DNA from: Candidatus Woesearchaeota archaeon
Lineage (GTDB): Archaea; Nanobdellota; Nanobdellia; Woesearchaeales; DSVV01
Reading direction: 5' to 3'
Length of the DNA: 64,000 bases
Assembly: GCA_016192995.1 (NCBI GenBank)
Contig: JACPTB010000005.1
Span: forward strand, 1 to 64,000
The position numbers and the translations under genes are program-made. The first letter of the stretch is position 1, and each line of letters begins with the position of its first letter. The notes beneath the pieces were generated by a model. That model ran no database searches. It was given only the letters and a program-made list of their open reading frames with translations, and was not told the DNA's origin. Below, piece by piece: positions 21,183 through 59,682 of this stretch.

Positions 21183-22163
21183 AGCACGCAATAAATCTTC
21201 TTCATGCTTAATCTGAACAATTTTCTGGCGTAAACTTGCGCCGCCTTCGATACCCTTTGTGAAATTCATACCATGCTCTTTCAAAGAAGTAAATGGAAGA
21301 CCATATTTTTTCCATAGTTCATAATATTCTAAAAACATTTTAACCTTCAATTGTTTTTCTTCTTCCTTGGTCATTTTTTCTATTTTTTTAGTTGCAAGAT
21401 AATGATTTATCTTCGTAAAAATATAAGGATTGCCTAATGCTGCCCTTCCAATAAGAATTCCATCACAAGCTGTTTCTGAAAACATCTTCTCCGCAGAAAG
21501 CTCATCATCAACATCGCCATTCCCAATAACTGGAATAGAAACAGCTTCTTTTACTTTTTTAATGAGACTCCAATCTGCTTTGCCTGCGTAGCCTTGTTTT
21601 TGTGTTCTAGGATGAAGAAAAATTGCCTTTGCTCCAGCTTGTTCTGCAAGCTTTGCAACTTCAATGCAATTAATAGTTGCTTCATCTATACCTGAACGAA
21701 TTTTAATAGTTACTGGAATAGAAACATGCTCTGAAAGTTTTTTAACCAATGCTGCAACCTTCTCGGGAGTTTGCAGCATTGCTGATCCTGCACCTTGTCC
21801 AGTAATTTTATCTGCCGGGCAACCCATGTTAATGTTGATCATATCACATTTTTTCTCAACAATTTTCGATGCTTGAACAATATAATCAATGTCATGGCCA
21901 AATAATTGAATTGCTACAGGATGTTCATCATCTGCAATAGTTAAACGCTTCAGCTCAGCAATATTGCCTCGCAAAATTGACGTTGAAGAAACAAACTCAG
22001 TCATCACTAATCCAGCGCCATATCTCTTGCACAAAGATCTAAATGCTACATCAGTATAGCCTGCCATTGGTGAAAGAAAGATTTTGTTTTTGAATGAGAC
22101 CGCACCAATTTTCAGAGAACTTTGCAAAATACTCGCATAGCTCGGGTTACTGCCAGTTCGCAT
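21165..22163 (-). CDS. dus: tRNA-dihydrouridine synthase, start overlapped by a structured repeat
   Basis: FMN-dependent reduction of uridine in tRNA. The TIM-barrel starts at LKIGAVSFKNKIFLSPMAGYTD; ININMGCPADKITGQGAGSAML holds the catalytic cysteine, followed by IKIRSGID, HPRTQKQGYAGKADW, IPVIGNGDVDD and DGILIGRAALGNP. About 315 residues belong to the family. Everything upstream of LKIG is encoded by a type 1 repeat (22114-22276), whose arm ends exactly where the usual MKIG start would be; the codon there is now CTG. The first usable ATG is in the repeat (22163, giving 20 extra residues); TTG at 22127 or CTG at 22115 are other options. Confidence 0.9.
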   Translation of the reverse strand: MRTGSNPSYASILQSSLKIGAVSFKNKIFLSPMAGYTDVAFRSLCKRYGAGLVMTEFVSSTSILRGNIAELKRLTIADDEHPVAIQLFGHDIDYIVQASKIVEKKCDMININMGCPADKITGQGAGSAMLQTPEKVAALVKKLSEHVSIPVTIKIRSGIDEATINCIEVAKLAEQAGAKAIFLHPRTQKQGYAGKADWSLIKKVKEAVSIPVIGNGDVDDELSAEKMFSETACDGILIGRAALGNPYIFTKINHYLATKKIEKMTKEEEKQLKVKMFLEYYELWKKYGLPFTSLKEHGMNFTKGIEGGASLRQKIVQIKHEEDLLRALQSTH

Positions 22164-22276
22164 TGAGATATATTTTTGACAAAGCAATTTTCTCTCTGGA
22201 ACCTCGAAAATTGCTTGATATGCACTTCGAAAATGCTCACGAAATTGGCAGTAACCATAATTTTGCAAAGTTCTCT
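22114..22276 (+). repeat. Structured element type 1 (AGAGAACTTTGC arms) over the dus start
   Basis: Outer arms AGAGAACTTTGCAAAAT and ATTTTGCAAAGTTCTCT; P1 GGTTACTGCC with GGCAGTAACC; GTTC; P2 GCATT with AATGC; TCAC loop; P3 GCAATTTTC with GAAAATTGC; apical TCTCTGGAACCTC. The left arm abuts the conserved dus coding sequence and the right arm ends 24 bp before the end of nadM. The element is read on the strand opposite to dus. Confidence 0.85.
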
Positions 22277-23627: not shown

Positions 23628-23790
23628 AGAGAACTTTGCAAAATACTCGCAAAGCTCGGGTTACTGCCGGTTCGCATTGAAATATCCTTTTAACAAAGCA
23701 ATTTTCTCTCTGGAACTCCGAAAATTGCTCGATAAATATTTCGAAAATGCTCACCAAATAGGCAGTAACCATAATTTTGCAAAGTTCTCC
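23628..23790 (+). repeat. Structured element type 1 (AGAGAACTTTGC arms)
   Basis: Same architecture as the 22114 copy: arms AGAGAACTTTGCAAAAT/ATTTTGCAAAGTTCTC, P1 GGTTACTGCC/GGCAGTAACC, P2 GCATT/AATGC, P3 GCAATTTTC/GAAAATTGC, loop TCTCTGGAACTCC. It fills the whole space between the convergent 22877 and ribL genes. Confidence 0.85.
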
Positions 23791-52583: not shown

Positions 52584-52798
52584 AGAGAACTTTGCAAAAT
52601 ACTCGCAAAGCTCGGGTTACTGCCAGTTCGCATGGAGATATATCTTTAACAAAGCAATTTTCTCTCTATAAATATAATCTCGACTAAAGATCGGGATTAT
52701 AAGACTTGCCTATCGGCAAGGAACCTCGAAAATTGCCCGATAAGTATTTCGAAAATGCTCACAAAATCGGCAGTAACCATAATTTTGCAAAGTTCTCT
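52584..52798 (+). repeat. Structured element type 1 (AGAGAACTTTGC arms) with apical insert
   Basis: Outer arms AGAGAACTTTGCAAAAT/ATTTTGCAAAGTTCTCT, P1 GGTTACTGCC/GGCAGTAACC, P2 GCAT/ATGC, P3 GCAATTTTC/GAAAATTGC. The apical loop carries the same two-hairpin insert as the 13958 copy although the surrounding helices are of a different kind. Confidence 0.85.
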
Positions 52799-52824: not shown

Positions 52825-53436
52825 ATGTACCCGCAATCTCATTTTCTATTTCCCTTTGTTCTCGGATTAGTATTCAACCATTATAATATACTCAGTATCG
52901 AACAAGCATTTGCTGCAGGAATTATTGGCGTGCTTATTGATCTTGACCATTATCTTGGATTTCTTTATCATTATAAAGATTTCAAAAGAAAACCGACCAC
53001 CCCCAGTCACAGACTGGTGGATTGCTCGCTTCGCTCGAGTCGGTTTTCTAAGAATGCGAATATTCTCAAAGTGATTGGTCATTCTCAAACCACTCGTCAA
53101 AGACGAGATGGAATATTCGCATTTAACATCAAGCACGTCTGGAATGCTGCTGTTGTCAAGCATGATCCTATTGAAAGAACATTTATCCACCATAAAATTG
53201 GTTTTGCTTTTATTACCTCAAAATTATTATTAATCATGTTGTTTCAACCATTACTATCATTGACTATTGCACTTGGGTATTATTCACATTTATTTTTGGA
53301 TTATATCAATCTCAATATATTTGGGTGGAAAAAAGTATTTTATATTATAGAAAAAGGTTTTGTGATTAAATTGCCGTTGCATGAAGCAGTGTTTGATATT
53401 TTGTTGGTGATGGTTATTGGAATGTATTTTTTATGA
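52825..53436 (+). CDS. Membrane protein with DLDH motif, carrying an in-frame palindromic insertion
   Basis: N-terminal SHFLFPFVLGLVFNHYNILS and GVLIDLDHYLGFLYHYKDF, C-terminal HDPIERTFIHHKIGFAFIT, ALGYYSHLFLDYINLN and four hydrophobic helices fit a DUF457-like membrane-bound hydrolase group, also seen at 50662. Codons for about 45 residues (from RKPTTPSHRL to GIFAFN) are supplied by two hairpins (52988-53123). This hydrophilic block stands between KDF and KHVWNAAVVKHD and breaks an otherwise continuous domain, yet the frame stays open. Possibly still functional. Confidence 0.7.
   Translation: MYPQSHFLFPFVLGLVFNHYNILSIEQAFAAGIIGVLIDLDHYLGFLYHYKDFKRKPTTPSHRLVDCSLRSSRFSKNANILKVIGHSQTTRQRRDGIFAFNIKHVWNAAVVKHDPIERTFIHHKIGFAFITSKLLLIMLFQPLLSLTIALGYYSHLFLDYINLNIFGWKKVFYIIEKGFVIKLPLHEAVFDILLVMVIGMYFL
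52988..53123 (+). repeat. Palindromic element inside a coding region
   Basis: Hairpin 1: GAAAACCGAC (52988-52997) with GTCGGTTTTC (53039-53048), enclosing CACC...GGTGG and CTCGCTTCGCTCGAG. Hairpin 2: AATGCGAATATTC (53053-53065) with GAATATTCGCATT (53111-53123), enclosing CTCGTCAAAGACGAG. The insert keeps the reading frame of the host gene, like the Rickettsia palindromic elements. Confidence 0.75.
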
Positions 53437-54992: not shown

Positions 54993-55155
54993 AGAGAACT
55001 TTGCAAAATACTCGCAAAGCTCGGGTTACTGCCAGTTCGCATTGAGATCTCTGTTTAACAAAGCAATTTTCTCTCTGGAACCTCGAAAATTGCTGGATAT
55101 GTACTTCGAAAATGCTCACAAAATTGGCAGTAACCATAATTTTGCAAAGTTCTCT
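54993..55155 (+). repeat. Structured element type 1 (AGAGAACTTTGC arms)
   Basis: Joined without spacer to the preceding element. Arms AGAGAACTTTGCAAAAT/ATTTTGCAAAGTTCTCT, P1 GGTTACTGCC/GGCAGTAACC, P2 GCATT/AATGC, P3 GCAATTTTC/GAAAATTGC, loop TCTCTGGAACCTC. Confidence 0.85.
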
Positions 55156-59520: not shown

Positions 59521-59682
59521 GAGAACTTTGCAAAATACTCGCAAAGCTCGGGTTACTGCCAGTTCGCATTGAGATATCTGTTTAACAAAGCAATTTTCTC
59601 TCTGGAACCTCGAAAATTGCCCGATAAGTCTTTCGAAAATGCTCACAAAATTGGCAGTAACCATAATTTTGCAAAGTTCTCT
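59521..59682 (+). repeat. Structured element type 1 (AGAGAACTTTGC arms)
   Basis: GAGAACTTTGCAAAAT/ATTTTGCAAAGTTCTC, P1 GGTTACTGCC/GGCAGTAACC, P2 GCATT/AATGC, P3 GCAATTTTC/GAAAATTGC, loop TCTCTGGAACCTC. The rest of the gap (59683-59835) is AT-rich with small inverted repeats (CCTATTAGG; CCTAT...ATAGG around 59757-59788) and no gene. Confidence 0.85.

Follow-up and report, generated by a model that had tools for sequence, protein, structure and literature searches.

An in-frame, two-palindrome mobile element in a woesearchaeal membrane-protein gene and its relatives across the Woesearchaeales

A gene in the window (the whole 64,000-nt stretch of woesearchaeal DNA analyzed here) is open through a segment folded into two hairpins, which raises the question of whether this segment is an ordinary part of the encoded protein or mobile DNA that entered the gene and is now translated with it. 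We consider it very probable that it is a short nonautonomous mobile element of two palindromes that inserted 3′ of TTCAA and is now translated in its host gene, belonging to a dispersed family repeatedly fixed in frame and acting as the archaeal functional counterpart of the Rickettsia palindromic elements (RPEs).

An In-Frame Insertion in a Membrane-Protein Gene

The features of the locus are as follows, a slash marking the junction in split sequences.

52825..53436, + strand: host gene for a probable YdjM-like (PF04307-related) integral membrane protein, 203 amino acids (aa) including 47 inserted residues (open reading frame, weak YdjM match, orthologs)
52981..52985, + strand: TTCAA, presumed target or left cleavage site, belonging to the gene itself (GAT TTC AA/C ATC; TTCAA start in 34/34 subfamily members, upstream sequence unrelated)
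52986..53126, + strand: net insertion, a two-hairpin mobile element of 141 nt = 47 codons, encoding KRKPTT...GIFAF (covariance model match 52981-53126, E=1e-30; excision restores DFNIKHVWN)
52987..53049, + strand: left hairpin, outer stem AGAAAACCGAC / GTCGGTTTTCT around an inner hairpin and CTCGCTTCGCTCGAG (folding, covariation)
53052..53124, + strand: right hairpin, outer stem GAATGCGAATATT / AATATTCGCATTT around CCACTCGTC-AAA-GACGAGATGG at 53090-53111 (folding, covariation; half-copies elsewhere in the genome)
53122..53126, + strand: TTTAA right end (end survey of 34 copies)

The host protein is weakly assigned to the YdjM-like family by a match (E=2e-4) that falls under the curated cut-off. 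Its reading frame, 52825-53436, has no break across the hairpin segment, which lies between residues 53 and 101. Orthologs are ∼160 aa long and occur in 24 genomes of the order by our own count of the match table. Their matches break off at approximately residues 45-56 and resume at approximately 99-111, the pattern of an insert-free gene, and nine orthologs among the first 60 relatives align from end to end without the segment. A weak match in G106 (7-65) runs some residues past the break; its frame of 169 aa is the size of an insert-free gene. Excising 52986-53126 according to the end rule rebuilds KDF/NIKHVWN, the orthologous sequence being KDF/KIKDAWN. The nearest ortholog (L013) reads KFKDFKIKDAWN where the window gene has HYKDF[...]NIKHVWN, and the predicted protein across the insert and its right junction reads KRKPTTPSHRLVDCSLR...GIFAFNIK. 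It is thus confirmed that 52986-53126 is an insertion in a membrane-protein gene that leaves the reading frame unbroken. A reading of the same DNA from sequence only had already described an in-frame palindromic insertion, which it placed at 52988-53123 with ∼45 residues; the location stands, and the true insertion is slightly wider, with 47 codons. The inserted peptide is hydrophilic, as that reading held (mean hydropathy −0.8 vs. +0.8 elsewhere in the protein), and strongly basic (net +9).

Both hairpins have the perfect stems ascribed to them. The outer stem of the left hairpin comprises 11 bp (52987-52997 / 53039-53049), and the hairpin encloses AGTCACAGACT and CTCGCTTCGCTCGAG, the two sequences previously reported inside it, with CCCCCAGTC-ACA-GACTGGTGG at 53000-53020 and CTCGCTTCGCTCGAG at 53025-53039; the outer stem of the right hairpin comprises 13 bp (53052-53064 / 53112-53124). 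The fold is far beyond chance, because the region's folding energy of −51.7 kcal/mol compares with −30.4 ± 3.6 in 200 dinucleotide shuffles (z = −5.9), none of which was as stable. One correction applies to the suggestion that the insert differs from the intergenic families here: its left half is present as a single copy, but two decayed copies of its right half were found in the genome (C1:247646-247715 and C8:8694-8760).

The window also contains copies of another, separate repeat family, with units of ∼162 or 215 nt bounded by perfect 17-nt terminal inverted repeats (AGAGAACTTTGCAAAAT) and 44 matches dispersed in the genome. Its copies in the window lie at 52584-52798, 22114-22276, 23628-23789, 54993-55155, and 59521-59682; the first of these ends 26 nt before the start codon of the host gene, and several copies have an additional stretch of ∼53 nt.

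A Dispersed Family in the Woesearchaeales

The left half of the element was found again in 28 of the 194 relatives searched, and in several families the right half follows it directly, at unrelated intergenic sites and in other genera and families. Because the same composite recurs at such sites, the two halves constitute one element. When seven copies were aligned, the consensus structure had four helices, with compensatory changes at 12 pairs, and the covariance model built on this alignment matches 88 of 353 genomes from the order, on contigs whose record titles name Woesearchaeota; a sample of 371 genomes of the phylum contained just three carriers outside the order. Both sides change in 30 of the 42 stem pairs among 34 copies (12.5 in shuffles, 7-12 when the structure is slid along the alignment), and compensatory cells number 138, compared with 33.5 in shuffles and 10-25 for slid structures; fitting the alignment to the model raises the paired percentage, but the distance from the controls is large. 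The majority of the ∼140 copies inspected are intergenic and ∼6 lie in genes. The element matched no Rfam family at E<=0.1, and an exact-pattern search of viral contigs gave no match.

Copies of similar score lie exactly at contig ends in G306 (C6, C34, C73, C74, and C105), as would be expected if the repeat had multiplied recently and interrupted assembly. A small hairpin, ACCACCAGTCANAGACTGGTGG, recurs throughout the order in several palindromic sequences that otherwise differ (many loci, e.g., L053, L055, and L056), which suggests a shared recognition motif.

Insertion into Unrelated Genes

Besides the window gene, at least five genes carry open, in-frame copies with both flanks belonging to one recognizable protein:

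G134 (L191): TrpE (Pfam Anth_synt_I_N + Chorismate_bind)
G007 (L194): DAGK-family lipid kinase
G055 (L199): Nudix hydrolase
G265 (L167): glycosyltransferase-like membrane protein (no significant Pfam match; one gene according to its orthologs)
G315 (L277; C57:18400-21500): MsrB

By the end rule, the net inserts in the window gene and the four genes other than MsrB measure 141, 126, 126, 135, and 120 nt, each divisible by three. In MsrB, the element's right end and a few codons of the host gene have been lost without a shift of frame, and the RYCIN motif follows. Three of the six gene insertions are in forward and three in reverse orientation. The three plus-orientation copies use the same element frame. 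The peptide inserted in the window protein is 63% identical to the MsrB insert over 30 residues, both being read in one element frame. Insert sites lie between segments that align to solved structures: with the element excised, TrpE reads LLLL/DTQ (LLPLLDTA in PDB 1i1q) and the Nudix gene VK/RRDND (LLRRSEN in the MutT-related 3grn), and excision by the end rule likewise gives TL/YKPMN, where a congener has TLKKPNN. Empty sites in close relatives were examined for two genes. The kinase gene is uninterrupted in G003, a genome of the same genus (protein 85-87% identical, upstream DNA ∼90% identical), and six relatives of the glycosyltransferase-like protein at 52-79% identity are without the insert.

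In what is by eye an arginyl-tRNA synthetase gene (L140, G186:C24), a copy replaces the final residues and encodes a new tail of ∼48 residues.

These in-frame insertions may be set against the expectation from chance. Across 100 copies, frames are open in ∼17% on average and length is divisible by three in 40%, so that ∼7% of random insertions in genes would be open by chance (0.40 × 0.17). Junction cases comprised five open copies against one to three that are not, giving a binomial p of 8e-6 to 7e-5 against the 7% chance, a value that is not a precise probability given ascertainment that was not blind, a small sample, and related copies. The count supports purifying selection having removed insertions that broke genes. 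The plus frame is open in 17 of 34 TTCAA copies compared with ∼6% of mononucleotide shuffles, a figure that is suggestive only, the copies being related.

The element could instead have broken the gene and persist as a neutral relic in an incipient pseudogene, its frame open by chance, and such openness is indeed expected of ∼7% of random insertions. Some in-gene copies are disruptive, such as that in an HTH-type regulator gene (L133, G315:C1:3500-6600), which appears broken by a copy whose length is a multiple of three and whose orientation brings in stops. However, the window gene has no stops in its other 156 codons, which retain the family's conserved motifs, the element is carried by biosynthetic enzymes (e.g., TrpE), and the junction cases, small in number and not blindly counted, lean toward open copies. 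We therefore regard a decaying host gene as improbable.

We favor a translated mobile element, in which an element of two tandem palindromes, ∼120-150 nt long, would have inserted directly 3′ of TTCAA in the YdjM-like gene. The gene would have stayed readable because the net length is divisible by three and one element frame is open, and the element would be translated as a 47-residue basic, hydrophilic stretch in a loop where orthologs have nothing. From the intact frames we infer that the inserts are translated and that the fusion proteins are produced and functional. More tentatively, and with more doubt than conviction, the Woesearchaeales may harbor a large superfamily of hairpin elements in which the frame that is most open lies in phase with the TTCAA target, such that insertion tends to add a peptide rather than break the gene and new protein segments keep arising in a lineage of small genomes.

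Ends of the Element and Its Mobilization

The left end in the window's subfamily is TTCAA in all 34 assigned copies, preceded by unrelated sequence, and the right ends of the same copies are TTTAA (20), TTCAA (8), TTAAA (4), TTGAA (1), and irregular (1). In a sister subfamily, left GTCAA is most often paired with right TTTTA (16/41). As left and right differ within most copies, the end pentamers are not target duplications. This bears on whether the element is a classical miniature inverted-repeat transposable element (MITE) mobilized by a DDE transposase, carrying terminal inverted repeats and duplicating a 5-bp target (TTYAA), an explanation to which TTNAA at both ends lends some appeal. A target duplication would give like ends within a copy, whereas TTCAA stands at the left of 34/34 copies and TTTAA at the right of 20/34, and GTCAA mostly faces TTTTA in the sister subfamily; moreover, the ends are not mutual inverted repeats, each half being its own palindrome. 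A DDE-type MITE accordingly has a low probability.

Elements of the IS200/IS605 type have two hairpin ends, insert next to a fixed 5′ sequence, and do not duplicate their target. The woesearchaeal element shares this organization, with a hairpin near each end, a constant sequence on the 5′ side of the insertion, and no target duplication. A Y1/HUH-type transposase acting in trans might thus recognize the hairpins as single-stranded DNA, a route that we consider plausible at somewhat less than even chances. Y1 transposases are present in 45 of 88 carriers and 80 of 265 noncarriers (odds ratio 2.4, p = 5e-4), a weak correlation that may simply mirror the overall mobile-element load, and several strong carriers have no detected Y1 transposase. 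No full-length relative with TnpA and the same ends was found around 23 Y1 loci scanned, nor was a Y1 transposase gene flanked by these hairpins found among those examined.

Two apparent Y1 neighbors were rejected, one in G306 being an IS200-like unit with its own hairpins and the other, in G157, lying in a separate gene region. Copies consisting of the left hairpin only were also considered as ends of a larger element and discarded, the adjoining open reading frames, judged by eye, not being transposase-like.

The strong folding at the RNA level would also fit an element removed from the mRNA in the manner of an archaeal bulge-helix-bulge intron and never translated. Its hairpins, however, are adjacent, with no pairing between the two boundaries of the insertion, and splicing would make the frame irrelevant, yet in-gene copies keep it in either orientation, making an intron very improbable. 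Least credible is an ordinary loop or domain of the protein, peculiar to the lineage and rich in inverted repeats by coincidence, as the intact frame and the few-residue length variation of this loop among orthologs might suggest, a view refuted by the intergenic copies in many genomes, which have the same ends and covarying stems, and opposed by the same DNA inside unrelated proteins and by orthologs across the order that have no such segment.

Relation to Known Palindromic Elements

Palindromic elements carried in frame have been portrayed as typical of Rickettsia and Wolbachia, which are obligate intracellular bacteria. With an unrelated set behaving alike in archaea of small genome size, whether such elements create protein segments can be tested in another domain of life with independent elements, and close-relative pairs such as G007 and G003 offer clean before-and-after genes for biochemical comparison. 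For annotators, it is a caution that mobile DNA accounts for some unusual insertions in DPANN proteins.

Short elements derived from IS200/IS605 resemble the woesearchaeal element in having hairpins near asymmetric conserved ends and inserting 3′ of a fixed pentanucleotide with no target duplication, and differ in that no tnpA with the woesearchaeal ends was found. Repetitive extragenic palindromes (REPs) mobilized by RAYT transposases occur also within genes and are likewise palindromic, nonautonomous, and dispersed; they are thought to be recognized as single-stranded hairpins by HUH tyrosine transposases (PMC3733652). The woesearchaeal composites, in contrast, measure 120-150 nt rather than the 20-40 bp of REPs, have TTCAA or GTCAA ends in place of a GTAG or CGTC tag, and had no repeat-flanked Y1/HUH transposase at the loci examined. 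Prokaryotic MITEs, including archaeal ones, are short and nonautonomous, and several bacterial MITEs are known in translational fusions (PMC10969869), but the woesearchaeal element has neither shared terminal inverted repeats nor a target duplication.

The parallel with RPEs is behavioral. These are reported in frame in Rickettsia and Wolbachia (PMC3767692, PMC10969869) and described, in the accounts those articles give of Ogata et al. (2000, 2002), as dispersed palindromes of 100-150 nt located between genes and in frame in unrelated genes, encoding a peptide segment missing from orthologs. The literature searched, largely open-access, yielded no archaeal or woesearchaeal in-frame palindromic elements. 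The woesearchaeal element differs in its two tandem hairpins with internal hairpins, its constant TTCAA/TTYAA ends, its archaeal host, and its low in-gene fraction (∼6 of ∼140 copies), compared with nearly half in R. conorii according to the review. The inserted peptide matched no NCBIfam model at E<=1, a comparison at the peptide level, and we claim kinship in behavior, not sequence membership in the Rickettsia families. With this scope, the interpretation of the sequence-only reading, which drew the parallel with RPEs, is supported: the element is a dispersed palindromic repeat of ∼100-150 nt, its family is dispersed, mainly between genes, through 88 of 353 genomes in the order, and it stands in frame in six unrelated genes, at least five of them besides the window gene, whose orthologs are without the peptide segment.
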